64,000 nt of DNA from assembly GCF_039655875.1 (NCBI RefSeq), contig NZ_JBBYXK010000007.1:62001-126000 (forward strand), given 5' to 3'. Below, one piece after another: positions 7,079-31,242 of the stretch. Every line of letters starts with the position of its first letter. Positions within the stretch are counted from its first letter, which is position 1. Below the pieces are notes generated by a model, which was given only the letters and a program-made list of their open reading frames with translations, had not been told where the DNA came from and searched no databases. The position numbers and the translations under genes are program-made. This DNA is from Emcibacter sp. SYSU 3D8. Lineage in GTDB: Bacteria > Pseudomonadota > Alphaproteobacteria > SMXS01.

Positions 7079-7091
7079 GGTTGCTTCCCCT

Positions 7092-7730: not shown

Positions 7731-7740
7731 TGGGTGTCTC

Positions 7741-9103: not shown

Positions 9104-9111
9104 GGCGGGCC

Positions 9112-10824
<1,713 letters not shown>

Positions 10825-10827
10825 TCG

Positions 10828-11139: not shown

Positions 11140-11146
11140 GGCAACC

Positions 11147-11449: not shown

Positions 11450-11462
11450 GGCGTCTTCCCTC

Positions 11463-12987: not shown

Positions 12988-12990
12988 GGC

Positions 12991-13770: not shown

Positions 13771-14933
13771 GGCTGAGCCTCCGTTTTTGGCTCGGCGAGC
13801 GACTGCGGTTCGGGCGCTTCGGGGGATGGTGTCGACCTCTTCAACAGTCCCAGCTTGCTTAGGCCGCCAACCACGCCTTTGGGCAGGAACAGGGTGGTCA
13901 GCACGAACAGGGCGCCAAGGGCATAGAGCCAAGCATCGGGGATAGCGCCGGTGAAGTAGGTCTTGGCGAAATTCACCAGTACCGCGCCCAGCGCCGCACC
14001 ATAGAGCGTGCCCCGGCCGCCAAGCGCCACCCAGATGACGATCTCGATGGAATTGGCGGGTGAGAACTCGCTGGGATTGATGATCCCAACCTGCGGCACA
14101 TAGAGTGCACCGGCGATACCTGCCATCACCGCCGAGAACGTGAACACGAACAGCTTGTAGTGCTCCACCCGGTAGCCCAGGAATCGCACCCGGCTCTCGG
14201 CGTCACGCACCCCTACCAGCACGCGTCCCAGTTTCGACATGACAATGAACCGGCAGGCCAGGAACGCCAGCATCAGAGCAATGCCGGTCGCAACGAACAA
14301 CGCCGCGCGGGTGCCGTCAGCCTGCAGGCTGAACCCGAGGATGTCCTTGAAGTCGGTGAGGCCATTGTTGCCGCCAAAGCCCATATCGTTGCGGAAGAAC
14401 GCAAGCAGCAGGGCGAAAGTCATGGCCTGGCTGATGATCGACAGATAGACGCCGGTGACGCGCGAGCGGAACGCAAGCCAGCCGAATACGAAGCCCAGGA
14501 TGCCCGGCGCCAAGACCACCATCAGCAGGGCGAAGGGGAAACTGTCGAAACCAAGCCAGTACCAAGGCAATTCCTGCCAATTCAGGAACACCATGAAGTC
14601 CGGGAGAACAGGATTAGCATAAACGCCGCGATCGCCGATCTGGCGCATCAGGTACATGCCCATGGCATAGCCGCCGAGCGCGAAAAACGCCCCGTGGCCA
14701 AGACTGAGGATGCCGCAGAATCCCCAGATCAGGTCGACGGACAGGGCCAGGATGGCGAAAGACAGATACTTGCCCAACAGGCTGACCACATAGGTCGGCA
14801 CATGCATAAACGAGTCCGGCGGCGTCAGCAGGTTGAGCAACGGGACCACAAGAGTGGTGGCGAGCACGATGACGAGGAATATCCGGCTGGGCTTGTCGAG
14901 CAGCAGCAGGCGGGAGGTGATCGGTCCGGTCAT
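13767..14933 (-). CDS. urtC: Urea ABC transporter permease UrtC
   Basis: LivM-like membrane permease of 388 aa with about ten hydrophobic segments. It has the family motif VDLIWGFCGILSLGHGAFFA and the cytoplasmic loop VRDAESRVRFLGY that docks with the ATPases. The start at 14933 gives MTGPITSRLLLLDKPSR. The C-terminal ~25 residues are a Pro/Glu-rich cytoplasmic tail. It starts ten bases after the urtB stop and its own stop overlaps urtD. Confidence 0.95.
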   Translation of the reverse strand: MTGPITSRLLLLDKPSRIFLVIVLATTLVVPLLNLLTPPDSFMHVPTYVVSLLGKYLSFAILALSVDLIWGFCGILSLGHGAFFALGGYAMGMYLMRQIGDRGVYANPVLPDFMVFLNWQELPWYWLGFDSFPFALLMVVLAPGILGFVFGWLAFRSRVTGVYLSIISQAMTFALLLAFFRNDMGFGGNNGLTDFKDILGFSLQADGTRAALFVATGIALMLAFLACRFIVMSKLGRVLVGVRDAESRVRFLGYRVEHYKLFVFTFSAVMAGIAGALYVPQVGIINPSEFSPANSIEIVIWVALGGRGTLYGAALGAVLVNFAKTYFTGAIPDAWLYALGALFVLTTLFLPKGVVGGLSKLGLLKRSTPSPEAPEPQSLAEPKTEAQP

Positions 14934-14943
14934 GCTCCGCCCC

Positions 14944-16734: not shown

Positions 16735-18063
16735 CTATTTGGACTTGCCGCCGCACTTGCCGGTCTTGACGTTGTAGTTGCCGCAGGACAGCGGCGCGCG
16801 CCAATCGGAGATCAGGTCCTTCGAGTCCGGCAGATAATCGGACCATTCGTCGCCCACGATCAGGCCGGGCGTCTTCTGCACGGTCTGGATCTGGCCGTTG
16901 CCCTGGATCTCGCCGATCAGCACGGGCTTGGTGATGTGGTGGTTCGGCAGCATGGCAGAGTACCCACCTGTCAGGTTGGGCACCGAGATACCGACCATCG
17001 CATCGATCACCTTGTCGGGATTAATGCTGTTGGCCTTCTTCACGGCCTGGACCCACATGTTGAAGCCGATGTAGTGGGCTTCCATGGGATCGTTGGTCAC
17101 CCGCTTGGGATTCTTGATGAAGGCCTGCCACTTCTTGATGAACTCGGTGTTCGCCGGGTTCTTTTCGGACATGAAATAGTTCCAGGCGGCCAGATGGCCG
17201 ACAAGCGGCTTGGTATCGAGGCCGGCCAACTCTTCCTCACCGACCGAGAACGCGACGACCGGAATGTCCTCGGCCTTGATACCCTGGTTGCCCAGTTCCT
17301 TGTAGAAGGGCACATTGGCGTCGCCGTTGATGGTCGACACCACCGCGGTCTTCTTGCCGCCCGAACCGAATTTCTTGATGTCGGCGACGATGTTCTGCCA
17401 GTCGGAGTGTCCAAACGGCGTGTAGTTGATCATGATGTCGGCGGCAGCGACGCCCTTCGACTTCAGGTAGGCTTCGAGAATCTTGTTGGTCGTGCGCGGA
17501 TAGACATAATCGGTGCCTGCCAGCACCCAGCGCTTAACGCCTTCTTCCTTCATCAGGTAGTCGACCGCGGGAATCGCCTGCTGGTTCGGCGCGGCGCCGG
17601 TATAGAACACGTTACGCGAGGATTCCTCGCCTTCGTACTGCACCGGATAGAACAAGACACCATTCAGTTCCTCGAACACCGGCAGCACGGACTTGCGCGA
17701 AACCGACGTCCAGCAGCCGAACACCGCCGCCACTTTCTGCTTGGCGAGCAGCTCGCGCGCTTTCTCGGCGAACAGCGGCCAGTCGGAAGCCGGATCGACG
17801 ACGACAGCCTCGAGCTTCTTGCCGAGCAGGCCACCCTTCTTGTTCTGCTCTTCGATCAGCATGAGCATGACGTCCTTCAACGTTGTCTCGCTGATCGCCA
17901 TGGTGCCCGAAAGCGAGTGCAGAATACCGACCTTGATCGTGTCGGCGGCCTGGGCGGCCGTCGCGCCAAAGGCCGTGGCGGCTATGACGCCCGCCGCGAT
18001 CAGCGATCTGGCTGGCTTTACGGCCGATTTCAATCCCTGCGTGAAAACCTGGTTCATGTGCAT
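16735..18063 (-). CDS. urtA: Urea ABC transporter substrate-binding protein UrtA
   Basis: Periplasmic binding protein, about 442 aa. The ATG at 18063 is preceded by AGGGAGGT seven bases upstream, preferred over an in-frame TTG at 18084. A signal peptide with a run of Ala ends near ATAAQAAD. The mature part opens IKVGILHSLSGTMAISETT, the UrtA/FmdD signature, followed by FGCWTSVSRKSVLPVFEE and GTDYVYPRTTNKILE. It lies 168 bases upstream of urtB and 75 bases downstream of the porin gene. Confidence 0.96.
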   Translation of the reverse strand: MHMNQVFTQGLKSAVKPARSLIAAGVIAATAFGATAAQAADTIKVGILHSLSGTMAISETTLKDVMLMLIEEQNKKGGLLGKKLEAVVVDPASDWPLFAEKARELLAKQKVAAVFGCWTSVSRKSVLPVFEELNGVLFYPVQYEGEESSRNVFYTGAAPNQQAIPAVDYLMKEEGVKRWVLAGTDYVYPRTTNKILEAYLKSKGVAAADIMINYTPFGHSDWQNIVADIKKFGSGGKKTAVVSTINGDANVPFYKELGNQGIKAEDIPVVAFSVGEEELAGLDTKPLVGHLAAWNYFMSEKNPANTEFIKKWQAFIKNPKRVTNDPMEAHYIGFNMWVQAVKKANSINPDKVIDAMVGISVPNLTGGYSAMLPNHHITKPVLIGEIQGNGQIQTVQKTPGLIVGDEWSDYLPDSKDLISDWRAPLSCGNYNVKTGKCGGKSK

Positions 18064-18100
18064 TGCTAAGACCTCCCTTGCCAATGCGAGTTGCTCGAAT

Positions 18101-18138: not shown

Positions 18139-19269
18139 CTAGATCTGGACCTGAATGCCGACGATGAACGAGTCGATGGACGGACCGAAATCGAAGTCCT
18201 CGTGGCCATAGGTGAACGACGCCCGGGCGTTGTGACCGTCGATGATATAGTTGAAGCCGCCATCCCACTTCTTGCTGCTGGCGAAGCCGTCGTCACGGTC
18301 CATGTCCTGGTACCGAATGACTGGCTGGAACTGGCCAAAGCCCACCTTCCCGGGAATCAGGAAGCTGGCCTGGGTGTAGAACCCTTCGCCTTCCATCAGT
18401 GTCGAAATGAGGCCGTCGGTATCGTAATTGTAGTAGGCGCCTTCCAGAGTGATCGCGCCGCCGTTGGCCACCGGCCACTCGAACAACACGTCGATGCTCC
18501 AGCCGGTGAAGTCGCCCCAGATGACATCATCGCCGGTCGCCTTTGCCTGATGCATGAAGGTCGCGCCGACGGCGAGGATCTTCTTGGTGCCGTAATAGGT
18601 GCTGGAGTTGTAATAGCCGGGCTCCGGATCGAAGAAATTGTAGACAAGGCGGCCGGCGAACAGCGGGGTATCGTGGTTATAGGCGCGGGTCGGAAACGGC
18701 GTATCGGCGAGGCTGCACGAATTCTTGCCACTGGAGCAGCCCTCGAACACGCCGAACTGGTACTTGAACTTGCCGCCGCCTATCTGGCCCCAGACGGCGA
18801 CGCCGTTGTCGCGGCCAGCGAAAATGGCCGGATAGCCCTGGACGTTCGGAAAGTTCCAGATGTTGGCGTAATAAGGGCCAGACAGGTTGGCGCGGTCGGA
18901 GGGCGGCAAGAAGCGCCCCATCCAAATATTGAAATATTCGCTGAACTGCAGCTTCACGACGGCATCAAGGATATGGATGTCGTCGTCGCCGTCGATTTCG
19001 GTGTTGAACTCGACGCCAACCCACTTGGTAACCTCGCCATTCACATAGAGGCGGGCGCTGTCGAGATTGAACTTGCTTGACCAGCTGCCGTCCGGCGCGG
19101 CGTCTTCGATGGCGTTGTACGACACGCGTGCGCCGGCGCCGACGCTGATCCACTTGTCTTCGTCGATTTCCATCTTGTACCCGGCATGGGCCGGCGCCGT
19201 GCTTGCCAGAACCGCGGCGGCGCCGACGATCGAGAGCAAACCAGTTTTCATGGTCTTGGTGAATTGCAT
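18139..19269 (-). CDS. Outer-membrane porin, probable urea/short-chain amide channel (FmdC-like)
   Basis: A 376-aa exported beta-barrel protein. The start at 19269 (MQFTKTMKTGLLSIVGAAAV) has GGGAG eight bases upstream; a signal peptide ends at STAPAHAG. The rest shows alternating aromatic/polar strands (for example FNLDSARLYVNGEVTKWVG and KLQFSEYFNIWMGRFLPP) as in phosphate-selective/OprP-type porins, ending with the short strand FIVGIQVQI. A porin is known next to Urt/Fmd transporters in other bacteria (FmdC of Methylophilus). Position as first gene before urtA suggests it admits urea or amides through the outer membrane; substrate is inferred. Confidence 0.75.
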   Translation of the reverse strand: MQFTKTMKTGLLSIVGAAAVLASTAPAHAGYKMEIDEDKWISVGAGARVSYNAIEDAAPDGSWSSKFNLDSARLYVNGEVTKWVGVEFNTEIDGDDDIHILDAVVKLQFSEYFNIWMGRFLPPSDRANLSGPYYANIWNFPNVQGYPAIFAGRDNGVAVWGQIGGGKFKYQFGVFEGCSSGKNSCSLADTPFPTRAYNHDTPLFAGRLVYNFFDPEPGYYNSSTYYGTKKILAVGATFMHQAKATGDDVIWGDFTGWSIDVLFEWPVANGGAITLEGAYYNYDTDGLISTLMEGEGFYTQASFLIPGKVGFGQFQPVIRYQDMDRDDGFASSKKWDGGFNYIIDGHNARASFTYGHEDFDFGPSIDSFIVGIQVQI

Positions 19270-19393: not shown

Positions 19394-19413
19394 TTGTGCG
19401 TCGCACCAATACG
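19394..19413 (-). promoter_or_regulatory. Candidate operator shared by the urea and amide operons, site 1
   Basis: TTGTGCGTCGCACCAATACG on the plus strand, about 125 bases upstream of the porin start. It contains the inverted repeat GTGCG-T-CGCAC and matches 19 of 20 bases at 26627-26646, upstream of the other minus-strand operon. Weaker similarity continues on both sides. No other gene function explains the match, so a common regulator site is likely. The regulator is not proven. Confidence 0.6.
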
Positions 19414-19663
19414 CAGAATGACGTAGGCACCCATCGCAGATGCGGTGTTTTCGCCGGGGCCGATTGGCCTGTGTGCGGCAAGGCCACGACTGCATTCAGA
19501 TTTTAATATTTATATTTCAATTGGTTAGGTGTTTTTATCAATTTTGTTCCAATGCCGTGATATTGCCCCTGCAAACAACTTGCCGCCAGTTACCGCGTTA
19601 CTGACGAGTCGCCATGCGTTACTGGAAGGTTGAGGAAAGCACGCATCCCGCATCGCACAACGA

Positions 19664-19856: not shown

Positions 19857-20207
19857 CTAGTGCGAGATCATCCAGGGCCTGGCCGAAGGGAAGGTCTTGC
19901 TGCCATCGGCAGTATAGACGGCGCGGCTGGGCTTCTTGTTGCTGGCGCAGCAAGAACAACCCGGTCCGTGCCCGCCCGCGTTTCGCGATGCCTTGGTCGA
20001 GAAATCAGGGCTGTGGGCGGCCTTTTCGTTGGTGGCGTGGGCCGTTCGGGCACCCGCGTCCATCATGGCCATACGCGGTGCCGTCAGGATCACACGGGGC
20101 GCGGTCGTGCCACAGCCGGGGCAATCGGACGGCTCGGCGCTTTCGGCCATGGGCCGGAAGCGCTCGAAGGGGCCGCAGTCAGGACAGATATAGCCGTAGG
20201 TTGGCAT
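19857..20207 (-). CDS. fmdB: FmdB family zinc-ribbon protein
   Basis: A 116-aa protein starting MPTYGYICPDCG. The N-terminal zinc ribbon has two CxxC knuckles (CPDCGPFERF and CPGCGTTAP), the hallmark of FmdB proteins, which were first found with formamidase and are thought to be regulatory. A C-terminal stretch contains a second Cys cluster (CSCCASN). It starts ten bases after fmdA and is last in the operon. The upstream part of its open frame lies in fmdA and is not used. Confidence 0.85.
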   Translation of the reverse strand: MPTYGYICPDCGPFERFRPMAESAEPSDCPGCGTTAPRVILTAPRMAMMDAGARTAHATNEKAAHSPDFSTKASRNAGGHGPGCSCCASNKKPSRAVYTADGSKTFPSARPWMISH

Positions 20208-20217
20208 CGGTGTCTCC

Positions 20218-21447
20218 TCACAGGTCCTTGGCCAGCGGCACGTCGATGCCCTTGGTGTCGAAGATCGTCGGTCCGTCGGCGCCCGGCTGGATGCTGAACT
20301 CGAATATCTCCGTGGGCAGCCAAAGGGTGGCACAGGCATTCGGGATGTCGACGACGCCCGATATGTGTCCCTGGACCGGCGCCGTGCCGAGAATGGCGTA
20401 GGCCTGAGCGCCCGAATAGCCGAACTTCTTCAGATACTCGATGGCATTCAGGCATGCCTGGCGATAGGCGATGTGCACATCCAGATAGTGCTGCTTGCCA
20501 CCCTCATCGACCGAAATGCCTTCGAAGATCAGATAGTCGTTGTAGGTCGGCGTAATCGGGCTGGGTTTGAAGATCGGGTTCTTAACGCCGTACTTGGCCA
20601 TGCCCCCCTTGATCAGGCTGACCTTCAGATGGATCCAGCCTGCCATCTCGATGGCGCCGCAGAAGGTGATCTCGCCATCACCCTGGCTGAAGTGCAGGTC
20701 GCCCATGGAAAGCCCGCCACCATCCACATAGACAGGAAAGAACACCTTCGCGCCGCGCGACAGGTCCTTGATGTCGCAATTGCCGCCATGCTCGCGGGGG
20801 GGCACAGTCCGGGCGCCCTCGGCCGCGGCGGATTTGGCTGCGTCACCCTGCATGCGGCCCATATGGGCGGTCGGCCCATAGGGCAGCGTGGCCAGCGCCG
20901 GCACCCGGTCGGGATCGGTATTGTAGAGTTCGGCCTCGCGCGTATTCCAGGTGTTCAGCATTTCCTTCGACGGCAGGCAGCCGATCAGGCCAGGATGGAT
21001 CAGCCCGGCGAAGTTCACGCCCGGAATGTGCCGCGAGCTGGTGAACATGCCCTTGATATCCCAGATCGACTTCTGCGCCTCGGGGAAATGCTCGGTGAGG
21101 AACCCGCCGCCGTTCTTCTTCGAGAAGAATCCGTTGAAGCCCCACAGGCTATCCGAGAACGCGCCGATATCCAGGAAGTCGACGACCAGCAGATCACCCG
21201 GCTCGGCTCCCTTCACCCCAATGGGACCTGACAGGAAATGCACCTGCGACAGGTCGACGTCGCGCACGTCGGACGCGTCGTCGTCGTTCTTGATCTGTCC
21301 GCCGGTCCAATCGACGCATTCCACGATGAAGTCATCCCCAGGCCTCACCCACGCGACCATGGGAATGTCGGGATGCCAGCGATTGTGAATCATGTCGTTG
21401 TCGTAGGCGGACTGGCTCAGGTCCACTTTGATGAGTGTGTCGGTCAT
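20218..21447 (-). CDS. fmdA: Formamidase/acetamidase FmdA
   Basis: Amidohydrolase of the FmdA/AmdA family converting formamide or other short amides to ammonia and the acid; 409 aa, full length. It has the family start TLIKVDLSQSAYDNDMIHNRWHPDIP and the conserved blocks GPIGVKGAEPGDLLVVD, PREHGGNCDIKDLSRG and GGLSMGDLHFSQGDGE. It is a cytoplasmic protein without a signal peptide. It is encoded after a dedicated ABC importer, so it probably acts on imported amide. Confidence 0.95.
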   Translation of the reverse strand: MTDTLIKVDLSQSAYDNDMIHNRWHPDIPMVAWVRPGDDFIVECVDWTGGQIKNDDDASDVRDVDLSQVHFLSGPIGVKGAEPGDLLVVDFLDIGAFSDSLWGFNGFFSKKNGGGFLTEHFPEAQKSIWDIKGMFTSSRHIPGVNFAGLIHPGLIGCLPSKEMLNTWNTREAELYNTDPDRVPALATLPYGPTAHMGRMQGDAAKSAAAEGARTVPPREHGGNCDIKDLSRGAKVFFPVYVDGGGLSMGDLHFSQGDGEITFCGAIEMAGWIHLKVSLIKGGMAKYGVKNPIFKPSPITPTYNDYLIFEGISVDEGGKQHYLDVHIAYRQACLNAIEYLKKFGYSGAQAYAILGTAPVQGHISGVVDIPNACATLWLPTEIFEFSIQPGADGPTIFDTKGIDVPLAKDL

Positions 21448-21501: not shown

Positions 21502-22191
21502 TCAGACAGACAGGAAGCTGGCGACCTTGGCTTCGTCGACCTCGCTGCGCAGGTTTTCGTGGACGATCTCGCCGTTCTCCATCACCAGCACCCGGTCGGC
21601 GATGTCGAGTGCGAAGCTGAGCACCTGTTCGGAGACGACGATGGACAGCCCCCGTTCATCGCGGATTCGCTTCAGGGTGCGGCCCATCTCGCGGATGATC
21701 GACGGCTGGATGCCTTCGGTGGGCTCGTCGAGCAGCAGCACCTTGGGCTTGGAGGCGAGCGCCCGCGCGATGGCGAGTTGCTGCTGTTGGCCGCCGGACA
21801 GATTGCCGCCGCGGCGCTTCTTCATCTCAAGCAGCACAGGGAACAGTTCGTAGATGTCGCCCGGCACCTTGCTCTCGCCGGTGACTGTCAGGCCCACCTC
21901 CACGTTCTCTTGTACTGTCATCGTGGAGAAAATCATCCGGCCCTGCGGCACGTAGGCGATGCCGTTGGCAACCCGCTGGTGGCTCTTCATACCGGTGATA
22001 TTGGTGTCATCGATGGTGACCATGCCGCTCTTGGTCGGGACAATTCCCATCAGGGATTTCATCAGCGTGGTCTTGCCCATGCCGTTGCGGCCCATGATGG
22101 CGATGATCTCGTTGGGCTTGACCGCAAAGTCGAGGCCGTGAAGCACCTCGCTCTCGCCATAGGCCACGTGGAGTTCGGATACGTTGAGCAT
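21502..22191 (-). CDS. urtE: Urt-type ABC transporter ATP-binding protein UrtE (second system)
   Basis: LivF-like ATPase, 229 aa, with Walker A MGRNGMGKTTLMKSL, signature LSGGQQQQLAIARAL and Walker B LLLDEPTEGIQPSII. Highly similar in plan to the UrtE at 12.3-13.0 kb but clearly a paralogue. It lies between a second UrtD and fmdA, 54 bases upstream of fmdA. The context with formamidase suggests the substrate is a short-chain amide rather than (or as well as) urea. Confidence 0.92.
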   Translation of the reverse strand: MLNVSELHVAYGESEVLHGLDFAVKPNEIIAIMGRNGMGKTTLMKSLMGIVPTKSGMVTIDDTNITGMKSHQRVANGIAYVPQGRMIFSTMTVQENVEVGLTVTGESKVPGDIYELFPVLLEMKKRRGGNLSGGQQQQLAIARALASKPKVLLLDEPTEGIQPSIIREMGRTLKRIRDERGLSIVVSEQVLSFALDIADRVLVMENGEIVHENLRSEVDEAKVASFLSV

Positions 22192-22200
22192 GATTGCCTC

Positions 22201-22956
22201 CTAGTGGCCCAGATAGACGTCGACGACCTTGGGGTCGGCCTGCACCTTTTCCATGGTGCCCTGGGACAAGATCTTGCCCTGGTGCAAGACGATGACCTTG
22301 TCGGCGATGTCCTCGACGAACTTCATGTCGTGCTCGATGACGATCACTGATCGGTCCTTGATGATCCGGTTGAGCAGTTCCGCGGTCTTCTTGCGCTCGC
22401 TGACGCTCATGCCGGCGACCGGCTCGTCGAGCATCAGCAGATCAGGGTCCTGGATCAGCAGCATGCCGATCTCAAGCCACTGCTTCTGGCCGTGGCTGAG
22501 ATAGGCGGCCTTCAGGCCAAGGTGCTCGGACAGGAAGATTGTCTCGGCGATCTCGTCGACCCGCTCAATCACCTGCTGGTCCCGCTTGAACGCCAGCGCA
22601 CCCCAGACCGAGCGACCACGCGGGTACGAGATTTCCAGGTTTTCGAACACGGTCAAATCCTCGTAGATCGACGGCGTCTGGAACTTCCGGCCGACACCCG
22701 CATGAACGATGCGGTCCTCGCGCATGCTGGTCAGTTCCTTGCCCCGGAACCTGATGGATCCGGACGTGGCCTTGGTGCGGCCGCAGATCAGGTCGAGCAC
22801 CGTGGTCTTGCCAGCGCCGTTGGGGCCAATGATGACCCTGATCTCGTTCTCGTCGATGTAGAAGGACAGGTCATCGACTGCCTTGAACCCGTCGAACGAA
22901 ACGGTGAGGCCCTCGACGGCGAGAAGGAAGTCCTGTTGCGTGTGGGTTGCGTTCAT
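22201..22956 (-). CDS. urtD: Urt-type ABC transporter ATP-binding protein UrtD (second system)
   Basis: LivG-like ATPase, 251 aa, with Walker A IGPNGAGKTTVLDLI, LSHGQKQWLEIGMLL in the signature position and Walker B LLMLDEPVAGMSVSE. It begins 13 bases after the stop of the second permease gene and ends nine bases before the second urtE. It powers the amide/urea importer of the fmd operon. Confidence 0.92.
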   Translation of the reverse strand: MNATHTQQDFLLAVEGLTVSFDGFKAVDDLSFYIDENEIRVIIGPNGAGKTTVLDLICGRTKATSGSIRFRGKELTSMREDRIVHAGVGRKFQTPSIYEDLTVFENLEISYPRGRSVWGALAFKRDQQVIERVDEIAETIFLSEHLGLKAAYLSHGQKQWLEIGMLLIQDPDLLMLDEPVAGMSVSERKKTAELLNRIIKDRSVIVIEHDMKFVEDIADKVIVLHQGKILSQGTMEKVQADPKVVDVYLGH

Positions 22957-22969
22957 GGATGTTTTCCTC

Positions 22970-24214
22970 TCAGGACGCTGGCTTTTCGCTGAGCCCGGAC
23001 GGACCCAGGAAGGCTTCGCTCCGCACCGGCCGCTCGGTTGGAGCTGGAACGGCGGGCGACAGGACAGGCGGCGCGGACAGGACCGGCGGCACCGCGCCGT
23101 CAGGCGGATTGACTTTGGCGCGGGCTGCGAGCCTGCGCTGCTTCAGCTTTTCCGAGACGCTCTGAACGATACCGGCGAGACCGTTCGGGAAAGCCAGCAC
23201 GACGGCAATGAACAGACCGCCCATGGCGAGAAGCCAGAGTTCGGGAAAACTTTCCGACAGGGTGGTCTTGGCCCAGTTGACCAGCAGCGCACCGTAAACC
23301 GCACCCAGCAGCGACAGCCGCCCGCCGACGGCACAGAAGATCACCATTTCAATCGACGCAACGATGCCAACAAATGACGGCGACATGAAACCCACCTGCA
23401 GGGTGAACATGGCGCCGCCGATGGCGCACATGGCCGCACCGAAGCAGAAGATGAATATCTTGAAATTGGCGACGTCATAGCCCGAGAAGCGCACCCGGTC
23501 CTCCTTGTCGCGCATGGCAACCAGCAGACGTCCGAGCTTGGATTTGAGCACGAACTGGGAGACCACCAGGCAGGCAATGAGCAGGCCCGCGTTGACGAAG
23601 TACAGAATGACTTTGGCGCTGTCGGTACGGATGTCCCAGCCCAGCAGGGTGCGCAAATCGGTCATGCCGTTGACCCCGCCGGTATAGCCCTGCTGCCCGA
23701 TGATCAGCACGGTGAGGATGGCGGCAAATGCCTGCGTGATGATGGCGAAGTACACTCCGCCCACCCGCCGCTTGAACATGGCGACGCCGATGATGTAGGC
23801 GAACGCGGTGGGTACCAGGATGATCAGGAGCAGGGTCAGCGGGAACGAGTGGAAGGGCTCCCAGAAGCTGGGTAGCGCGGTGATCTGGTTCCAATCCATG
23901 AAGTCCGGGATACCGGGCGTGGACTGAATCTTGGTGTTCTCGACGCTCGAGGCCTCAAGCTTCAGGAACATGGCCATGCAATAGCCGCCAAGGCCGAAGA
24001 ACACGCCCTGGCCGAGACTGAGAATGCCGCCATAGCCCCAGCATAGAACCAGACCGACGGCGACGAAGGCGTAGGTCAGGTATTTGCCGACCAGGTTGAG
24101 GCGAAACACGTCGAGCGCCAGCGGAAACACCACCAGCAGGAGCGCTGCCAGGATGAGGAGCGAGAACAGCTCGTTGCGGGAATAGAGGGCAAAGCGTGAC
24201 TTGATCATCTGCAT
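22970..24214 (-). CDS. urtC: Urt-type ABC transporter permease UrtC (second system)
   Basis: LivM-like permease of 414 aa. It has WGYGGILSLGQGVFFGLGGY and the coupling loop MRDKEDRVRFSGYDVANFK. After the last helix it has an unusually long (~60 residue) Pro/Ala-rich cytoplasmic tail (VPPVLSAPPVLSPAVPAP), longer than that of the first UrtC. It begins four bases after the second urtB. Function as part of an amide importer is inferred from the adjacent formamidase gene. Confidence 0.92.
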   Translation of the reverse strand: MQMIKSRFALYSRNELFSLLILAALLLVVFPLALDVFRLNLVGKYLTYAFVAVGLVLCWGYGGILSLGQGVFFGLGGYCMAMFLKLEASSVENTKIQSTPGIPDFMDWNQITALPSFWEPFHSFPLTLLLIILVPTAFAYIIGVAMFKRRVGGVYFAIITQAFAAILTVLIIGQQGYTGGVNGMTDLRTLLGWDIRTDSAKVILYFVNAGLLIACLVVSQFVLKSKLGRLLVAMRDKEDRVRFSGYDVANFKIFIFCFGAAMCAIGGAMFTLQVGFMSPSFVGIVASIEMVIFCAVGGRLSLLGAVYGALLVNWAKTTLSESFPELWLLAMGGLFIAVVLAFPNGLAGIVQSVSEKLKQRRLAARAKVNPPDGAVPPVLSAPPVLSPAVPAPTERPVRSEAFLGPSGLSEKPAS

Positions 24215-24218
24215 GCCC

Positions 24219-25145
24219 CTACTTCCGCACTTTGAGCGAGAACAGACCCTGGGGACGCAGCATCAGGATGCCGACGATGGTCAACAGGGTAAACACCTTG
24301 GCCATGGAGCCCGACATGAAGAACTCCAGCGTCGACTGGGCCTGGCTGATGGTGAAAGCCGACGCGATAGTGCCCAGCAGGCTAGCCGCGCCGCCGAACA
24401 CCACGACGAGGAACGTGTCGACGATGTAGAGCTGGCCGGCGGTTGGCCCGGTGGAGCCGATCATGGTGAAGGCGCTGCCGGCGATGCCGGCGATGCCGCA
24501 GCCGATGCCGAAAGTCAGACGGTCGGTTCGCTCGGTGTTGATGCCGACGGCGCCGGCCATCACCCGGTTCTGCATTACCGCGCGCACCTGCTTGCCCCAC
24601 GAAGACCTGTACATCAGCAGGTAGACAACGAAGGTGATGGTGAGAGTCAGAACCATCACGAACACGCCGTTGATCGGCACTTCGATGGTCTCGCTGATGG
24701 GAAACGAGCCCATCAGGTAATCGGGCAGGCTCACGCCCACCTCGCGTGCGCCGAAAATGGAGCGGTAAAGCTGCTGGAGGATAAGGCTGAGGCCCCAGGT
24801 GGCGAGCAATGTATCGAGAGGTCGCTTGTAGAGATGGCGGATGATCGCCCACTCGACCAGCATGCCTAGGCCTCCGGACACCAGGAATGCCAGTATCATG
24901 GCCACAAAAAAGTATATCCCGAACAGGGCGGGTGCGTAGTTCTCGACCAGTTGCGAGCAGAGATAGGTGACGTAGGCGCCCAGGATCATGAACTCGCCAT
25001 GGGCCATGTTGATGACCCCCATCTGTCCGAAGATGATCGCGAGACCGAGGGCCATCAGAACGAACACCGAGAACAGGAGCAGGCCGGCGAAGCCTTGCAT
25101 GGCGAAGATCGAACCGAGTTCGCTCGCCGTGTAACCGTCAAACAT
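24219..25145 (-). CDS. urtB: Urt-type ABC transporter permease UrtB (second system, short form)
   Basis: LivH-like permease of 308 aa. The start MFDGYTASELGSIFAMQ at 25145 has GGAGGG seven bases upstream; the open frame extends to 25391 but that part is antisense to urtA and intergenic DNA. It contains FGQMGVINMAHGEFMILGAY. Unlike the UrtB at 14.9-16.6 kb it has no signal peptide or 220-residue HEAT-like extension, matching FmdE-type amide permeases more than urea UrtB. Confidence 0.92.
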   Translation of the reverse strand: MFDGYTASELGSIFAMQGFAGLLLFSVFVLMALGLAIIFGQMGVINMAHGEFMILGAYVTYLCSQLVENYAPALFGIYFFVAMILAFLVSGGLGMLVEWAIIRHLYKRPLDTLLATWGLSLILQQLYRSIFGAREVGVSLPDYLMGSFPISETIEVPINGVFVMVLTLTITFVVYLLMYRSSWGKQVRAVMQNRVMAGAVGINTERTDRLTFGIGCGIAGIAGSAFTMIGSTGPTAGQLYIVDTFLVVVFGGAASLLGTIASAFTISQAQSTLEFFMSGSMAKVFTLLTIVGILMLRPQGLFSLKVRK

Positions 25146-25252
25146 CGAGATACCCTCCGAGGGGGAAACCCGTCGCGCTGAACATGGCGAAGACCGGGCG
25201 GAAGCGGGATGGCGTGGACATGGTCCGGGATCTTTCGGAAACCTGAAGGGCT

Positions 25253-25284
25253 GCTGCCGGAGCTTCGGGGGAAGCCCCGGCAGC
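25253..25284 (-). other. Intercistronic hairpin between second urtA and urtB
   Basis: GCTGCCGG (25253-25260) pairs with CCGGCAGC (25277-25284), and the stem continues inward for five more pairs past one mismatch around a GGGG loop. It sits just after the binding-protein stop, as in the first urt operon, and lacks a clear T-run on the minus strand. It probably protects the 3' end of the binding-protein message. Confidence 0.6.
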
Positions 25285-25296
25285 GCAGCCCAGCGC

Positions 25297-26547
25297 CTAC
25301 TGGTAGCCCTTGGGGAACGGATCAGGCTCAACCAGGTCCTTGGTCTCGTAGACCAGCTTGTATTGGCCATCGAGTTGGGCCAGACCGACACGGGTCTTCG
25401 ACCAGAGGTGATGGTTGGGGTGAACCTTCACGTAGCCTTCCGGCGCGGTCTTCAGCTCGATGCCGGGCAACGACTTCTTGGTGGCGTCGACGTCGAAGCT
25501 GCCTGCCTTCTCGACCGCGGCTTTCCACAGCCACGGGCCCAGATAGGCCGCCTGGGTGACGTCGCCGATGACGATGTCCTTGCCCCACATTGCCTTGAAA
25601 GCCTTCACGAAGGCCTTGTTGTTGGGGTTATCCAGGCTCTGGAAGTACTTCATGACCGCATAGGCGCCGACGATGTTCTCACCGCCGATTCCCTGGATTT
25701 CGTCCTCGGTGACCGAGATGGTCAGGAGCAGCGGCTTTTCTTTGGTCATATCGATGCCGGCCGCCTTCAGCTGCTTGTAGAAGGCAACGTTGGAGCCGCC
25801 GACGACGATCGCGTAGATCACGTCGGGCTTTTTCAGCTTGATCTTGTTGATGACCGAGTTGAACTGGGTATGGCCAAGCGGATAGTAGTCTTCGCCCACC
25901 ACCTTCAAACCCAGCTTCTCGATGTGCTTGCGGGCGATCTTGTTGGAAGTCCGCGGCCAGATGTAGTCGGAGCCGAGCAGGTAGAAAGTCTTGGCCCCCT
26001 TGGTCTTGGCGACCCAGTCGATGCCGGCGATGATCTGCTGGGTAGCTTCCTGGCCGGTGTAAATGACATTCGGCGACTGCTCGAGACCTTCATAGAAGGT
26101 CGGGTAGTACAGCATGCCGTTGTATTGCTCGAATACCGGCAACACCGCCTTGCGCGAGGCCGAGGTCCAGCAGCCGAACACAGCGGCAACCTTGTCATTG
26201 ACCAGCAGTTTCTTGGCCTTTTCAGCAAAGGTCGGCCAGTCGGAGGCGCCGTCTTCCTGGATGAACTCGATCTTGCGGCCCAGCACCCCGCCCATGTCGT
26301 TGATCTGCTTGATCGCCAACTTTTCGGCCTGCACCGAACCGGTTTCCGAGATTGCCATGGTCCCGGTCACAGAGTGAAGAATGCCGACCTTCACGGTTGT
26401 GTCAGTGACCGCGAGTCCGGTGGTATTGGCCTTGTCCGCGGCATGGGCGGCTAGCGGCGCCAGCGCCACCGCCGCCAGCATGGCCGCTTTTGCGGTTCTG
26501 CGAAGCGCCGCGCCCAGGCTGCGGGGACTTCCTCTTTCCAATGTCAT
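25297..26547 (-). CDS. urtA: Urt-type ABC transporter substrate-binding protein (second system, FmdD-like)
   Basis: Periplasmic binding protein of 416 aa from the ATG at 26547 (MTLERGSPRSLGAALRRT), with GAGAGG just upstream; the frame runs open to 26928 without family similarity. A signal peptide ends near LAAHAADK. The mature part has VKVGILHSVTGTMAISETG, FGCWTSASRKAVLPVFEQ and LGSDYIWPRTSNKIARK, clearly the UrtA/FmdD family. It is first in the amide operon. Divergence from the first UrtA in the binding region suggests a different ligand, most simply formamide or acetamide. Confidence 0.93.
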   Translation of the reverse strand: MTLERGSPRSLGAALRRTAKAAMLAAVALAPLAAHAADKANTTGLAVTDTTVKVGILHSVTGTMAISETGSVQAEKLAIKQINDMGGVLGRKIEFIQEDGASDWPTFAEKAKKLLVNDKVAAVFGCWTSASRKAVLPVFEQYNGMLYYPTFYEGLEQSPNVIYTGQEATQQIIAGIDWVAKTKGAKTFYLLGSDYIWPRTSNKIARKHIEKLGLKVVGEDYYPLGHTQFNSVINKIKLKKPDVIYAIVVGGSNVAFYKQLKAAGIDMTKEKPLLLTISVTEDEIQGIGGENIVGAYAVMKYFQSLDNPNNKAFVKAFKAMWGKDIVIGDVTQAAYLGPWLWKAAVEKAGSFDVDATKKSLPGIELKTAPEGYVKVHPNHHLWSKTRVGLAQLDGQYKLVYETKDLVEPDPFPKGYQ

Positions 26548-26957
26548 GATGCCTCTCTTTATGAATCGTTGTTGGTGGTGCAAAGCCGGAATTCGGCCGG
26601 GGACACACCACAACGATCCCGACTTTTTGTGCGTCGCAGCAATACGTCGATATGCGTATGGCGATACGCGGTTCGGCTGGGTAGCGTCCGGATCAAGACA
26701 CGCCCTCACGGCCACATGGCCGCGGACTCCTTCGGGTCCGGGCATCTGACGTAAGCAACACAGCAGGCTAAGAAGGATCAGAACACGGCAGGCATGAATA
26801 AAGTCCGTATCCGGGGGCAGAGTTCGGAAAATTGGCCCCGAATTCGCCAACGGCCCGCAATGCGTTATTGCCGCTTGGAAAGCGCTTGCAAATGCGGTCC
26901 ATTTTGCAATGCACAAGACCTTCGACACTCATAAGTACCAGGAGCACGACCGAAGGC
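26548..26957. other. Divergent regulatory region between the amide operon and the sensor kinase
   Basis: This 410-bp region separates the second urtA (minus) from the hybrid kinase (plus) and must hold both promoters. It contains the 20-bp shared element (26627-26646) and, just beside it, an inverted repeat GCGTAT-GGCG-ATACGC (26654-26669). No convincing sigma-54 -24/-12 element was recognised on either strand. No gene is supported here. Confidence 0.6.
26627..26646 (-). promoter_or_regulatory. Candidate operator shared by the urea and amide operons, site 2
   Basis: TTGTGCGTCGCAGCAATACG on the plus strand, about 80 bases upstream of the second urtA start. It is identical to site 1 (19394-19413) in 19 of 20 positions. 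It lies in the divergent region, so the bound regulator could also control the kinase/regulator pair. Confidence 0.6.
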
Positions 26958-29900
26958 ATGACACCGCACCAGAAGGTGATCCGCGAGCGGCGACAGTACA
27001 ATCAATGGGTCGCCAACCAGACCCTTGAAGACTACGCGTTACGGTTCACCGCCAACAATGCGCGCAAGTGGTCGTCGTTCCGCGTCGCCAACACGGCACT
27101 GGGCGCAGTGTCGTTCCTCGCACTCGAGGCTATCGGCGGCGCCATCACCCTGAGCTACGGGTTCTCCAATGCTGCCGCCGCCATTCTGGTCGTGGGCACA
27201 ATTATCTTTCTGGTCGGCCTACCGATCTGCTTCTATGCCGCCAAATACGGCGTCGACATCGACTTGCTGACCCGCGGCGCCGGGTTCGGCTATATCGGCT
27301 CGACGATCACCTCGCTGATCTATGCCTCGTTCACATTCATCTTTTTCGCACTCGAGGCGGCGATCATGGCGCTGGCCCTGCAGATGTGCTTCGACCTGCC
27401 GCTTTGGCTGGGCTATCTGATCAGCGCCCTGATCGTCATTCCACTGGTCACCCACGGCATTACCACCATCAGCCGCTTCCAGATGATCACCCAGCCGGCC
27501 TGGGTCATCCTGCAGCTGCTGCCCTTCATCTTCATCGGCGCCAAGGGGATGTTCGAGCTGGATACGTGGACCGCCTATCGGGGCACCCACGGCGCCGCCG
27601 ACGGTTCCATCGACCTGCTGCACTTCGGCGCGGCCTCGGCCGTCGTGTTCTCGCTAATCGCCCAGATTGGTGAGCAGGTCGACTATCTGCGATTCCTGCC
27701 GCGCGACCGCAGGGGCAGCCGGAAGAGATGGTGGGCGGCCATGGTGTGCGCCGGCCCGGGTTGGGTCATCCCGGGCATGGTCAAACTTCTGGCCGGCTCA
27801 TTCCTGGCCGTACTGGCGCTGAATTCGGGGGTTCCCTTCGCCAGCGCCGCCGAGCCGACCCAGATGTACCTGCTCGCCTTCACCCAGGTGATCGCCCAGC
27901 CCGACATCGCCATCGCGCTGACCGGTGCGTTCGTCGTCATCTCCCAGCTCAAGATCAACGTCACCAATGCCTATGCCGGGTCGATCGCCTGGTCGAACTT
28001 CTTTTCCCGGCTCACTCACAGTCATCCGGGACGCGTGGTCTGGCTGGTGTTCAACGTGACTATCGCCATCATCCTGATGGAGCTCGGAATCTACAAGGCA
28101 CTGGAGCACACTCTGGGGCTCTACGCCAATATCGCCGTGGCCTGGGTCGGCTGCATCGTCGCCGATCTGGTGATCAACAAACCGCTGGGGCTGTCGCCGC
28201 GTCATATCGAATTCAAGCGGGCCCATCTCTACGACATCAATCCTGTAGGCGTGGGCGCCATGCTGGTCGCCTCGGTCCTGTCGATCGCCGCCTATGCGGA
28301 CGTGCTGGGCGAAACGGCCCGCGCGCTTGCCCCGTTCATCGCGCTGGGCACGGCGCTGGTCGTATCGCCGCTGATCGCCCTTGCCACGGGCGGGCGCTTC
28401 TATATAGCCCGCGAGCCAACGACGCCGCTGGCCGACAGCAGGCCCGAGCGCTGCTGTATATGCGAACATACGTTCGAACCCGAGGATATGGCCACCTGCC
28501 CGGTCTATGCCGGACCGATCTGCTCGCTGTGCTGTTCGCTCGACGCCCGCTGCCGCGACGCCTGCAAGGTATCGGCGCGGTTTTCCGACCAGGTGCTGCA
28601 GTTCATGGCCTGGGTCTTTCCCCGGCGGCTGGTGGTCCACCTCAACACGCGGCTGGGCCAGTATCTGGGACTGCTGCTGCTGTTCACCCTGACCATCGCG
28701 GCCATTCTGGCACTGGGATATGTGCAGATGAGCCTAACACCCGACGCGCCAACAGCGATCATCGCCGACACGCTGTGGAAGGTGTTCTTCATCCTGATCA
28801 TCGTCGCCGGCATCGTCGCCTGGCCATTCGTGCTGGCCCACGAGACCAGCCGCGCCGCCCAGCAGGAAACCCAGCGCCAGACTATGATGCTGATGCGCGA
28901 GATCGACGCCCACCAGAAGACTGACAAGGCACTGCAGAAGGCCAAGGAGGCCGCCGAGGCCGCCAGCATGGCCAAGAGCAAATACGTCGTCGGCATCAGC
29001 CACGAACTGCGCACGCCGCTCAACGCCATACTTGGGTATGCCCAGCTGCTCGAGGCCGATCCGGCCATGCCCGGCCATCGGAAGCACGCACTGAGCGTCA
29101 TCCGCAGAAGCGGCGATCATCTGTCCGGCCTGATCGACGGGCTGCTCGACATCTCCATGATCGAAGCAGGCCGCCTGCAACTCTACCGCGACGAGGTGCC
29201 GATCAATGATTTTCTGGGCCAGCTCGTGGACATGTTCAGCATGCAAGCCAAGGCCAAGGGTCTCGACTTCTCGTTCGACCCGCCCGAAAGCCTGCCCGAC
29301 CTGGTCTATACCGACGAGAAACGGCTGCGGCAGATCCTGATCAACCTGTTGTCGAATGCCATCCGCTGCACCGAACAGGGCGGCGTGACCCTGAGCGTGC
29401 AATACCGCAACCAGATCGCCACCTTCGAAGTAGAGGACACCGGCATTGGCATCGCCAGGGAGAACCTCGAACGGGTGTTCCGCGCTTTCGAACGGATCGA
29501 GACGCCGGGCACCGTCAAGCGCCCCGGCACCGGCCTTGGCCTGACAATCACCAAGCTGCTGACCGAGTCCATGGGCGGCGAAATCACCGTGCGCAGCACG
29601 CCGGGAAGTGGCAGCGTGTTCCGGATCAAGCTGATGCTGGGTAGCGTTCCGCGCCCTGCCCGCTCGGTCGTCCCGACGCGGCGCATCACCGGTTACGAGG
29701 GAGACCGGATTAGCGTGCTGGCGGCCGACGACGACCAGAATCATCTGGACCTGGTGCGCGACCTGCTGTCGCCGCTAGGCTTCATCGTCATCGCCGCCGT
29801 TGACGGTCCGTCCTGCATCGAGGCCGCCACCCATTCAATGCCGGACATCGTGCTGCTTGACATCTCCATGCCCGGAATGACGGGCTGGGATGTGGCGCGC

Positions 29901-30335
29901 ACCCTGCGCGAGGATGGCATCTGCCGCGCACCGATCGTGATGATCTCGGCTAACGCCCGCGAGGAGCGCCAGCGAGAGGTCTCGGCAGCCTTCCACGACG
30001 CCTATCTGATGAAACCCATACAACTCGGCACCATGCTGGATACCGTCAAGGCCCTGCTCAATCTGCGCTGGATCCACGATCAGCCGGCCGAGCCCGCCAG
30101 TGCCGGGATGCCGCAGTCGCTGCGCCGGAACGAAATCCCGCCACGCCCGCAGATCGGCACGCTGATCCAACTCGGCCGCATCGGCCATGTGCGCGGCATC
30201 CTGTCCAAACTCGACGAGATCGAGGACGTTCAGCCCGACACCAGGCGGGTGGTCGCGCATCTGCGCGGCCTGGTACGCGAATTCGAACTGGTCCAGTACG
30301 ACACCGTCCTGAAGGCATTGCAGCATCATGAATGA
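26958..30335 (+). CDS. Hybrid sensor histidine kinase with NCS1-type permease sensor domain
   Basis: A 1125-aa membrane protein; the start MTPHQKVIRERRQYNQW at 26958 matches the usual N-terminus of NCS1 permeases. Residues ~1-490 are a complete NCS1 (purine/cytosine/allantoin permease-like) domain with many helices. A Cys-rich cluster at ~497-535 (CCICEH ... CSLCCSLDARCRDAC) follows, then two more transmembrane helices and a short coiled coil. The kinase core is HisKA (ISHELRTPLNAILGYA, phospho-His H682) plus HATPase (NLLSNAIR, DTGIGIA, GTGLGL). Then comes a receiver domain with phospho-acceptor D968 (IVLLDISMPG) and an unassigned tail of ~100 residues. Its stop overlaps the response-regulator start. 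Location divergent to the amide operon suggests it senses a nitrogenous solute. Confidence 0.9.
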   Translation: MTPHQKVIRERRQYNQWVANQTLEDYALRFTANNARKWSSFRVANTALGAVSFLALEAIGGAITLSYGFSNAAAAILVVGTIIFLVGLPICFYAAKYGVDIDLLTRGAGFGYIGSTITSLIYASFTFIFFALEAAIMALALQMCFDLPLWLGYLISALIVIPLVTHGITTISRFQMITQPAWVILQLLPFIFIGAKGMFELDTWTAYRGTHGAADGSIDLLHFGAASAVVFSLIAQIGEQVDYLRFLPRDRRGSRKRWWAAMVCAGPGWVIPGMVKLLAGSFLAVLALNSGVPFASAAEPTQMYLLAFTQVIAQPDIAIALTGAFVVISQLKINVTNAYAGSIAWSNFFSRLTHSHPGRVVWLVFNVTIAIILMELGIYKALEHTLGLYANIAVAWVGCIVADLVINKPLGLSPRHIEFKRAHLYDINPVGVGAMLVASVLSIAAYADVLGETARALAPFIALGTALVVSPLIALATGGRFYIAREPTTPLADSRPERCCICEHTFEPEDMATCPVYAGPICSLCCSLDARCRDACKVSARFSDQVLQFMAWVFPRRLVVHLNTRLGQYLGLLLLFTLTIAAILALGYVQMSLTPDAPTAIIADTLWKVFFILIIVAGIVAWPFVLAHETSRAAQQETQRQTMMLMREIDAHQKTDKALQKAKEAAEAASMAKSKYVVGISHELRTPLNAILGYAQLLEADPAMPGHRKHALSVIRRSGDHLSGLIDGLLDISMIEAGRLQLYRDEVPINDFLGQLVDMFSMQAKAKGLDFSFDPPESLPDLVYTDEKRLRQILINLLSNAIRCTEQGGVTLSVQYRNQIATFEVEDTGIGIARENLERVFRAFERIETPGTVKRPGTGLGLTITKLLTESMGGEITVRSTPGSGSVFRIKLMLGSVPRPARSVVPTRRITGYEGDRISVLAADDDQNHLDLVRDLLSPLGFIVIAAVDGPSCIEAATHSMPDIVLLDISMPGMTGWDVARTLREDGICRAPIVMISANAREERQREVSAAFHDAYLMKPIQLGTMLDTVKALLNLRWIHDQPAEPASAGMPQSLRRNEIPPRPQIGTLIQLGRIGHVRGILSKLDEIEDVQPDTRRVVAHLRGLVREFELVQYDTVLKALQHHE

Positions 30336-31242
30336 CAATGGCGGCTCCTATATCGTCCTGGTGGTGGACGACTCGCCGGAAACCCTTAGCCTGCTGACCG
30401 ACACTCTGGAGGATGCAGGCATCACCGCGCTGGTCGCCCGCAGCGGCGGCGCCGCGCTGTCGCTGATTGATCGGGTGATGCCCGACGTGATCCTGATGGA
30501 CGCGGTCATGCCCGAGATGGACGGTTTCGAGACCTGCCGCCGGATCAGGCAGAACAAGGACACTGCTCATGTACCAGTTATCTTCATGACCGGCCTGACC
30601 GACACCGAGCACGTCGTCATGGGGCTGGAGGCCGGCGGCGTGGATTACGTGACCAAACCGGTCCCGCCCTTCGAGATACTGGCGCGCATCCGCGTACACC
30701 TGGCCAATTCCCGTATGGCCCAGAGCGCGCGTATCGCTCTCGATGTGGCCGGACGCACCCTATTGGCGGTCAACCGCAAGGGCGAGGTATTGTGGAGCAC
30801 GCCGCAGGCGGCGGGCCTGCTGAAGCGAGTGCTGGGCGTGTTCGATACCGACGCGCCAGCGTGGAACAACTCCGTGAAGCCGCGCCTCGCCGACCTGGTC
30901 GCCCAGCGCGCCAGTGACCCGACGATCGTCGCGGCGGGCAACGCCAGAGTTCTCGCCGCTTTGCTGGGCGAGGCCGGTCCCGGCGAGTTCCTGCTGCATC
31001 TGAGCGACGGCACTGCCGCCAACGACCAAACTCTGTTGAAGCAGAAGCTGGGCCTGACCGCCCGCGAGGCCGAAGTGCTGTTGTGGACCGCCCAGGGCAA
31101 GTCAAACCGCGATATCGCCGAAATCCTCCAGTGCAGCCCCCGGACGGTGAACAAGCACTTGGAACAGATCTATGCCAAGCTGGGCGTGGAAAACCGCACC
31201 GCTGCGGCAGCTATCGCGGTTCGATTGCTGATCGATAAATAG
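30328..31242 (+). CDS. LuxR-family two-component response regulator
   Basis: A 304-aa regulator. The N-terminal receiver has the acidic pair DD at 14-15, phospho-acceptor D58 (VILMDAVMPEMDG) and Lys in VDYVTKPV. A middle region of ~100 residues has no clear family. A C-terminal LuxR/NarL-type helix-turn-helix spans about residues 235-300 (LTAREAEVLLWTAQGKSNRD, then SPRTVNKHLEQIYAKLGV). It overlaps the kinase gene by eight bases, so it is very likely the kinase's output. It is the best candidate to bind the 20-bp element upstream of the urea and amide operons. Confidence 0.9.
   Translation: MNDNGGSYIVLVVDDSPETLSLLTDTLEDAGITALVARSGGAALSLIDRVMPDVILMDAVMPEMDGFETCRRIRQNKDTAHVPVIFMTGLTDTEHVVMGLEAGGVDYVTKPVPPFEILARIRVHLANSRMAQSARIALDVAGRTLLAVNRKGEVLWSTPQAAGLLKRVLGVFDTDAPAWNNSVKPRLADLVAQRASDPTIVAAGNARVLAALLGEAGPGEFLLHLSDGTAANDQTLLKQKLGLTAREAEVLLWTAQGKSNRDIAEILQCSPRTVNKHLEQIYAKLGVENRTAAAAIAVRLLIDK

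Follow-up and report, generated by a model that had tools for sequence, protein, structure and literature searches.

Histidine kinases of the SLC5/STAC type, namely CbrA, CrbS and RpuS, are described as carrying a whole LeuT-fold transporter domain N-terminal to the histidine kinase. To our knowledge, few transporter-kinase fusions have been characterized and all of them are SLC5-based. CbrA is reported to feature a lysine, K196, in its Na2 site and to be driven by the proton motive force (PMC13022988). Clusters that combine urt genes with formamidase have been described for pKPN-307 of K. pneumoniae (PMC5506382, PMC13060141), P. veronii (PMC13209695) and Ectopseudomonas G3 (PMC13296017), and in the last of these a hybrid kinase and a LuxR regulator are located beside urt (PMC13296017). 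In the text consulted, none of these descriptions gives the kinase a permease domain, and no NCS1-type kinase was recognized in a literature search of limited journal coverage. Here we describe a 64,000-nucleotide stretch of the Emcibacter sp. SYSU 3D8 genome (contig NZ_JBBYXK010000007.1, positions 62,001 to 126,000), referred to as the window, that encodes a hybrid sensor histidine kinase with an NCS1-type sensor domain next to urt, formamidase and urease genes. The favored reading, to which we give a probability of roughly two thirds, is that of a transceptor-type hybrid kinase that responds to urea or short-chain amides and would induce their uptake and hydrolysis.

Identity of the sensor domain and architecture of the kinase

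The initial annotation held that the first ~490 residues of the kinase form an NCS1 permease and that HisKA, HATPase and receiver domains follow. For residues 1-491, Pfam gives no permease match with the E-value limit raised to 10 and phmmer gives none in the PDB, the whole genome contains no PF02133 match, and the sole NCBIfam match of the permease part is a weak one to the cytosine permease CodB (E 4.9e-7, residues 24-198). A false NCS1 call, which these results raised, was ruled out by profile searches and by the predicted fold. With a profile of 26 sequences, including two distant NCS1 proteins, the CodB structure 7qoa is matched at E 4.3e-7. When 24 family members, without those two, were compared with nine varied NCS1 proteins, hhalign gave a probability of 99.8 and E 2.2e-27 over 430 columns; the match to the single E. 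coli CodB sequence is weak (probability 23.7, E 8.5e-4). An AlphaFold model of residues 1-660, made with 34 sequences, has a predicted local distance difference test (pLDDT) score of 73.8 and a predicted template modeling (pTM) score of 0.74. The model matches CodB with a Z-score of 32.3 (395 residues, 3.5 Å) and Mhp1 with 28.1, the best non-NCS1 chain reaches 24.0, and SLC5-type structures match lower, for example 5nva at 21.5. An unfused relative of the domain in a Klebsiella record (L131) passes PF02133 with 38.5 bits against a cut-off of 23.5; in the same comparison P0002 and three other unfused relatives fall below the cut-off. From profile and predicted structure it is nearly certain that the sensor domain has the NCS1 fold. 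Relatives of the kinase are labelled 'ATP-binding protein' or 'ArcB' in public records, which fits the absence of a Pfam permease match.

The remainder of the layout was borne out by Pfam. HisKA, HATPase_c and receiver domains follow the permease part, the ATPase motifs are present in the alignment, and the regulator gene is adjacent. The open reading frame at 26958-30335 on the forward strand is free of stops over 1,125 codons, and its start ATG is matched by several relatives (e.g. L011, L012, L017, L019). Two long predicted helices between the linker and HisKA are interpreted, on the basis of sequence, as a transmembrane (TM) hairpin that would run into the coiled coil of the DHp domain. 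A shorter, non-hybrid form of the sensor is located beside fmdA/fmdB in two genomes (L157, L167). The L157 kinase (8499-11156) is adjoined by a receiver-HATPase protein in which HisKA is below its cut-off, an arrangement that is perhaps a different phosphorelay. The reading frame is broken in some kinase relatives (L010/L016, L018, L073), of which at least a part come from metagenome assemblies.

The cysteine-rich linker, which the initial annotation did not include, features eight cysteines that are kept in 140/140 aligned hybrid sensors. Foldseek matches to the predicted linker fold are non-significant (best E 0.22) and many are zinc fingers (FYVE, RING, PHD), so that 'treble-clef zinc finger' is only a guess. 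A search of 398 genomes with the linker alone, aimed at the module under other input domains, matched 55, of which 52 are the kinase carriers described below; the other three matched partially, G340 over the helical part with E 1.7e-11 and G091 and G358 with E above 1e-4. That the eight cysteines are as strongly conserved in hybrid sensors as the pocket speaks for an alternative in which the permease domain is a mere anchor and sensing takes place in another part of the protein, such as the linker, or in the cytoplasm. Four of them are shared by most unfused relatives, each position being Cys in 7 to 9 of the 9, so those four are not specific to signaling. At the transport site, residues do not vary between sensors and unfused permeases, which is unexpected for an anchor, and we regard this alternative as improbable.

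Substrate pocket and sodium site

The pocket contacts of CodB, including Trp108 and Phe204, the aromatics that sandwich the substrate, have been reported (PMC9379551). Two alignments, the profile match to 7qoa and one by MAFFT, place T126 of the window kinase at CodB Gln105, F129 at Trp108, L233 at Phe204 and Q236 at Ala207, and CodB Arg216 and Tyr285 correspond to R245 and Y339 by MAFFT and by hhalign alike. E239 and Q240 come after Q236, and E133 is located one turn past F129, at Mhp1 Gln121; in Mhp1, Trp117 is the partner of CodB Trp108 and has the same spacing to Gln121. Conservation was counted over 151 unclustered domains, comprising 140 hybrid sensors, 2 non-hybrid sensors and 9 unfused relatives. 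T126, E133, Q236, E239, Q240, K332, N334 and N337 are invariant in 151/151. L233 is kept in 150 of the domains, including 139/140 hybrid sensors, and position 129 is Phe in 130/140 hybrid sensors and Leu in the other 10. The window family lacks the two-aromatic sandwich of NCS1 proteins (CodB Trp108 and Phe204); being a trait of the substrate site, this is read as divergence within NCS1 and not as exclusion from it.

There is a discrepancy regarding the sodium site. TM8 is ungapped in the hhalign alignment, which places K332/I333 at the Na2 ligands Thr278/Thr279, whereas MAFFT opens a 3-residue gap in TM8 and places T336 at Thr279, so that Na2 is partly kept. The ungapped alignment, by which the Na2 site would be lost, is tentatively preferred. 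In TM1, Glu57 is found in 139/140 hybrid sensors (one has a gap) and in 2/2 non-hybrid sensors, and Asp56 in 9/9 unfused relatives. Taken together, the alignments suggest a pocket without one of the NCS1 stacking aromatics and, by one of the two, without the sodium site. With one stacking aromatic gone and polar side chains around it, such a pocket would suit a small acyclic amide.

The initial annotation listed urea, formamide, allantoin and pyrimidines as possible ligands. Urea and formamide-like amides are favored here, and a urea or short-chain amide ligand is considered probable. Allantoin and pyrimidines are disfavored, since one NCS1 stacking aromatic is a leucine and no genes of purine or pyrimidine catabolism recur in ten annotated neighborhoods (L096, L098, L099, L131-L137), the only ones searched for them, the 110 loci counted below not having been included. 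Purine breakdown yields urea as an end product, and the ligand might be a nucleobase, hydantoin or allantoin, with the urea and amide genes induced as the downstream pathway. Characterized bacterial NCS1 substrates other than metformin are reported to contain nitrogen heterocycles (PMC13390362). Set against this are the same ten neighborhoods and the replacement of CodB Phe204 by Leu233 and of Ala207 by Gln236, and a heterocyclic ligand is judged very improbable.

Gene neighborhoods and co-occurrence

One scan of genome contigs gave 445 loci encoding a relative, of which the best 80 were inspected. Matches were also found in 538 plasmid records, 342 of them from Klebsiella; the 538 include a few ordinary NCS1 permeases. 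On plasmid pJYC03A (L096, NZ_CP022920.1), the kinase, urtABCDE and formamidase are flanked by insertion sequences, and heat-shock and drug-resistance genes are near. A record named Frankia sp. RB7 (L090) has a locus close to those of Bradyrhizobium and is probably misnamed.

Neighborhoods were counted at 110 kinase loci flanked by 8 kb or more on each side, with proteins from the window and from L096, L099, L134, L136 and L137 as queries; the two source sets overlap in species. The kinase stands beside urt, fmd or ure genes at 107 of these loci, and at 39/41 after clustering at 85%, so the survey of orthologues that had been proposed beforehand did not lead to unrelated pathways. The loci split into 90 with urt and fmdA (50 of these also with an aliphatic amidase), 7 with urt and urease, 6 with urt alone, 4 with urease alone, 1 with amidase only and 2 with none. 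A homologue of the LuxR-type regulator is located within 10 kb of the kinase at 110/110. FmdA and UreC are never found together within 10 kb of the kinase at these loci; the window cluster has both, with urease more distant. In four genomes two paralogous kinases divide a urease locus and a formamidase locus between them (L144/L154, L160/L141, L159/L152, L180/L164).

Co-occurrence was determined in 398 sampled genomes of the phylum. With an unfused relative as the query, 61 genomes matched, and the 52 with strong matches and long open frames were kept as kinase carriers; the nine weak or short matches that were dropped are G093, G149, G227, G246, G274, G288, G348, G386 and G438. FmdA scores above its curated cut-off in 40/398 genomes, and the kinase is present in 39 of the 40, in G249 in the non-hybrid form only. 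The association has a Fisher p of 1.4e-41, not corrected for descent, and holds in 16/17 families. The lone FmdA genome without a kinase is G167, and its fmdA stretch is without the palindrome described below. The kinase occurs without FmdA in 13 genomes; urease or urt is adjacent in 12 of them, and the 13th has the kinase on a short contig. These results make it very probable that the kinase and its regulator control the urt, fmd and urease genes. The direction of that control is one that we infer, which gives some room to a repressor-type or general nitrogen-status sensor that would shut the genes off or answer ammonium instead of amide. The tight link to FmdA, urt and urease argues against such a sensor, general nitrogen genes not having been looked for, and it is considered quite improbable.

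A shared palindrome upstream of the kinase

The upstream regions of the kinase share a dyad, ATACG-N8-CGTAT, which is present in 22/58 regions; the highest count for any dyad in three Markov-resampled sets is 5. In 47/58 regions the score of a 26-bp weight matrix exceeds the 99th percentile for resampled sequence. In 117 loci (2.41 Mb) the matrix gave 108 matches within 700 bp upstream of a kinase and 19 elsewhere, and the reversed loci (2.67 Mb) gave 3. Sixteen of the 19 off-kinase matches were examined, those of L048, L064 and L149 being left out as low scorers, and they are located before fmdA (8), urtA (6) and the porin (2). In a Methylovirgula locus from the plasmid collection (L136), sites are found in the gap between fmdA and the kinase and before the amidase, with a third at 12200. 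In a locus from the same collection labelled A. baumannii (L138), the kinase and an unfused permease are divergent and the site is located between them; beyond this kinase-regulator and permease group (6335-11611), apparent genes of a polar amino-acid ABC transporter were seen by eye. At the seven unfused-permease loci without a kinase no site of at least 14 was found (L131 has one of 13.7).

Palindromes 1 and 2 (Table 1) are the only matrix matches above 10 in the window. Palindrome 1 faces urtABCDE-fmdA-fmdB in one direction and the kinase-regulator pair in the other. Palindrome 2 heads a same-strand run of the porin, the second urtABCDE set and ureDABCEFG with ureJ.

Unfused relatives

Unfused relatives of the sensor domain occur in similar settings. 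On Acinetobacter plasmids (L099, L137), a 535-residue unfused relative with 43% identity precedes ureEFGJDABC, and in a Klebsiella record (L131, 8956-10563) one labelled cytosine permease directly follows ureG. The L131 record, a 5.37-Mb 'plasmid', looks like a chromosome. In Moraxella and Tsukamurella the unfused relative is near fmdA, in Arthrobacter it adjoins an aliphatic amidase, and in Methylovirgula (L136) it stands between the kinase-regulator pair and an amidase, with fmdA near. By locus, unfused forms go with urease in L099, L131 and L137, with fmdA in L132 and L135, and with amidase in L134. An NCS1 permease of Paracoccus (L100, 5923-7551) that is located beside hydantoinase genes also has a CxxC...CxxC tail.

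A quick tree with support from the Shimodaira-Hasegawa-like approximate likelihood ratio test (SH-aLRT) only was made from 150 domains clustered to 67 rows, with L016, L073, L189 and L193 skipped. The unfused forms make up one starred group of 7 rows; the outgroup branches are very long, and the tree gives no order of fused and unfused forms. Five changes of urease linkage map onto it, four or more of them to starred branches, gains and losses being counted together. Since urease-linked and formamidase-linked sensors both exist and the linkage changed at least four times, either the pocket would accept several small amides or its specificity would shift.

The unfused relatives also bear on whether the sensor domain still transports. 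The mapped site is nearly identical in sensors and unfused relatives, and for CbrA both histidine transport and signaling are reported (PMC13022988, PMC7096432). The window protein could likewise be a full urea or amide transporter in which turnover, and not binding alone, is the signal, as in one model for CbrA. Against this, the sensors have Glu57 in TM1 where the unfused relatives have Asp56, and the adjacent ABC importer already provides uptake; transport-coupled signaling of this kind is rather unlikely. We lean slightly toward a receptor whose transport is lost or slow, because TM1 sets the sensors apart from the unfused relatives while most of the rest of the mapped site is common to both; a domain that has kept full transport is somewhat less likely. 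Since natural unfused relatives exist, domain swaps could tell whether the signal is binding or transport.

Proposed mechanism and points against it

In the favored reading, the input would be an NCS1 (LeuT-fold) permease domain remodeled to take a small acyclic amide, with urea or formamide/acetamide as the most likely ligand. The ligand would enter the central site, where TM1 and TM6 face TM3 and TM8, and the resulting conformational change would pass through the cysteine-rich linker and the TM hairpin to the dimerization helix. His682 would be phosphorylated and the signal passed to the LuxR-type regulator. The regulator would bind ATACGTCA-NN-TGACGTAT palindromes and would induce urtABCDE-fmdAB, the kinase-regulator pair and, through the second site, the porin-urt-urease run, each presumably transcribed as an operon.

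Several observations weigh against this reading. The TM8 alignment, on which the loss of the sodium site depends, is disputed between hhalign and MAFFT, and no clean specificity residues separate urease-linked from formamidase-linked sensors in what are at most four independent pairs. A Streptomyces plasmid carries an unfused relative without urease, fmdA or amidase neighbors. The kinase is patchy in the genus of the window (4/7 genomes), and at two loci (L190, L191) kinase and regulator stand without urt, fmd or urease nearby, L190 keeping the palindrome. The palindrome matrix was trained on the same regions that were later counted, and in 11/58 regions upstream of the kinase no palindrome exceeds the threshold set by shuffling. 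The palindrome-less regions include 4 of the 11 urease-linked ones, one of which (L159) has a site before urtA; three of a Sinorhizobium-type group (L097, L181, L185), which have a site before urtA instead; and L059, L098, L164 and L191. No site of at least 12 precedes the unfused permease in L136. The exact pattern ATACG-N8-CGTAT occurs once in the 4.07-Mb window genome, as palindrome 1, and a backwards control pattern also occurs once. With about one chance match expected, the single occurrence proves little alone, and the argument for a regulon comes from the many loci and not from uniqueness in this genome. The sensor could also read another cue that tracks the supply of urea or amides.

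Features of the window

The kinase had been placed between amide/urea import and a LuxR regulator, and this holds: urtABCDE-fmdA-fmdB are divergent from the kinase, and the regulator gene is located downstream of it. Further left are the porin, the second urtABCDE set and the urease genes. The palindromes were not part of the initial annotation. Positions 6554-26547, about 20 kb on one strand, contain two complete urtABCDE sets, the porin, fmdAB and a urease gene set. A scan of 26500-27000 gave no sigma-70 promoter and no terminator.

Table 1. Coordinates of the kinase, its predicted parts and surrounding features in the window
Feature	Coordinates	Strand	Basis or remark
NCS1-type hybrid sensor histidine kinase, 1,125 aa	26958..30335	+	ORF, Pfam, profile, fold
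NCS1 permease-fold domain, residues 1-491	26958..28430	+	hhalign and predicted fold
Cysteine-rich linker, residues 496-537	28443..28568	+	alignment
Two long predicted helices, residues 565-592 and 599-659	28650..28934	+	predicted helices
HisKA, residues 673-738, phospho-acceptor His682 in HELR	28974..29171	+	Pfam PF00512, motif
HATPase_c, residues 785-894	29310..29639	+	Pfam PF02518
Receiver (Response_reg), residues 920-1030	29715..30047	+	Pfam PF00072
Response regulator, receiver and LuxR/GerE DNA-binding domain	30328..31242	+	Pfam
Palindrome 1, ATACGTCGATATGCGTAT	26642..26659		between divergent urtA and kinase; 95 bp from urtA ATG
urtA, first set	25297..26547	-	TIGR03407 above cut-off; start checked
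urtB, first set, ORF (true start probably inside)	24219..25391	-	TIGR03409
urtC, first set	22970..24214	-	TIGR03408
urtD, first set	22201..22956	-	TIGR03411
urtE, first set	21502..22191	-	TIGR03410
fmdA, formamidase	20218..21447	-	NF045496, 775 bits vs cut-off 500
fmdB, zinc ribbon	19857..20207	-	TIGR02605, PF09723; start checked
Palindrome 2, ATACGCAGAATGACGTAG, imperfect	19409..19426		matrix score 23.4; 140 bp before porin ATG
Porin, FmdC-like by position only	18139..19269	-	NF040900 below its cut-off; start checked
urtA, second set	16735..18084	-	TIGR03407 above cut-off
urtB, urtC, urtD, urtE, second set	12292..16566	-	TIGR03408-03411
Urease genes ureD, A, B, C, E, F, G and hupE/ureJ	6554..12356	-	Pfam

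Comparison with known systems and implications

If the favored reading is correct, a second transporter family serves as the antenna of a kinase, probably in hundreds of species. It would provide a regulator and a candidate ligand for the urt, formamidase and urease clusters of many proteobacteria and of Klebsiella plasmids, and would correct the 'ATP-binding protein' and 'ArcB' annotations. A wider proposal is offered tentatively: a whole branch of NCS1 may have given up heterocycles in favor of urea and short-chain amides and comprise unfused permeases and transceptor kinases with the same ligand and the same pocket. Across Pseudomonadota the kinases would then use one palindrome to control import of the ligand, formamidase and urease. 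The unfused permeases, such as those after ureG in a Klebsiella record and before urease on Acinetobacter plasmids, would be candidate energy-dependent urea carriers. Energy-dependent uptake of urea was reportedly described in Klebsiella by Jahns et al. in 1988, and we know of no gene that has been assigned to such uptake in bacteria.

The window kinase resembles CodB and Mhp1 in fold and profile and differs from them in the replacement of Phe204 by Leu233, in its fusion to a kinase and, in the ungapped alignment only, in the loss of the Na2 hydroxyls. Urea transporters of the DUR3 family, which are SLC5 proteins, also have the LeuT fold, and entries 9vim and 9x5u have urea bound according to their titles; 9vim matches the model with a Z-score of 21.8 as opposed to 32.3 for CodB. 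The NCS1 transporter MetT is reported to carry metformin, an acyclic nitrogen compound (PMC13390362). Its pocket is described as lined by aromatics, with no kinase reported in the text consulted (PMC13390362), and it is set beside the window kinase by description and not by sequence.

Among kinases, the window protein would operate in the manner of CbrA, CrbS and RpuS, but it is not an SLC5/STAC kinase, because its transporter domain comes from another family. No STAC domain is named in the Pfam and NCBIfam results, whether these libraries hold a STAC model not having been checked. The window kinase joins an NCS1 domain to its kinase part through a cysteine-rich linker and a TM hairpin, whereas CbrA, CrbS and RpuS join an SLC5 domain through STAC. 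It has a LuxR-type partner and urea and amide genes, whereas the partner of CbrA is CbrB, a sigma54-dependent factor. The lysine reported in the Na2 site of CbrA (PMC13022988) resembles the placement of K332 in the hhalign alignment of the window kinase.

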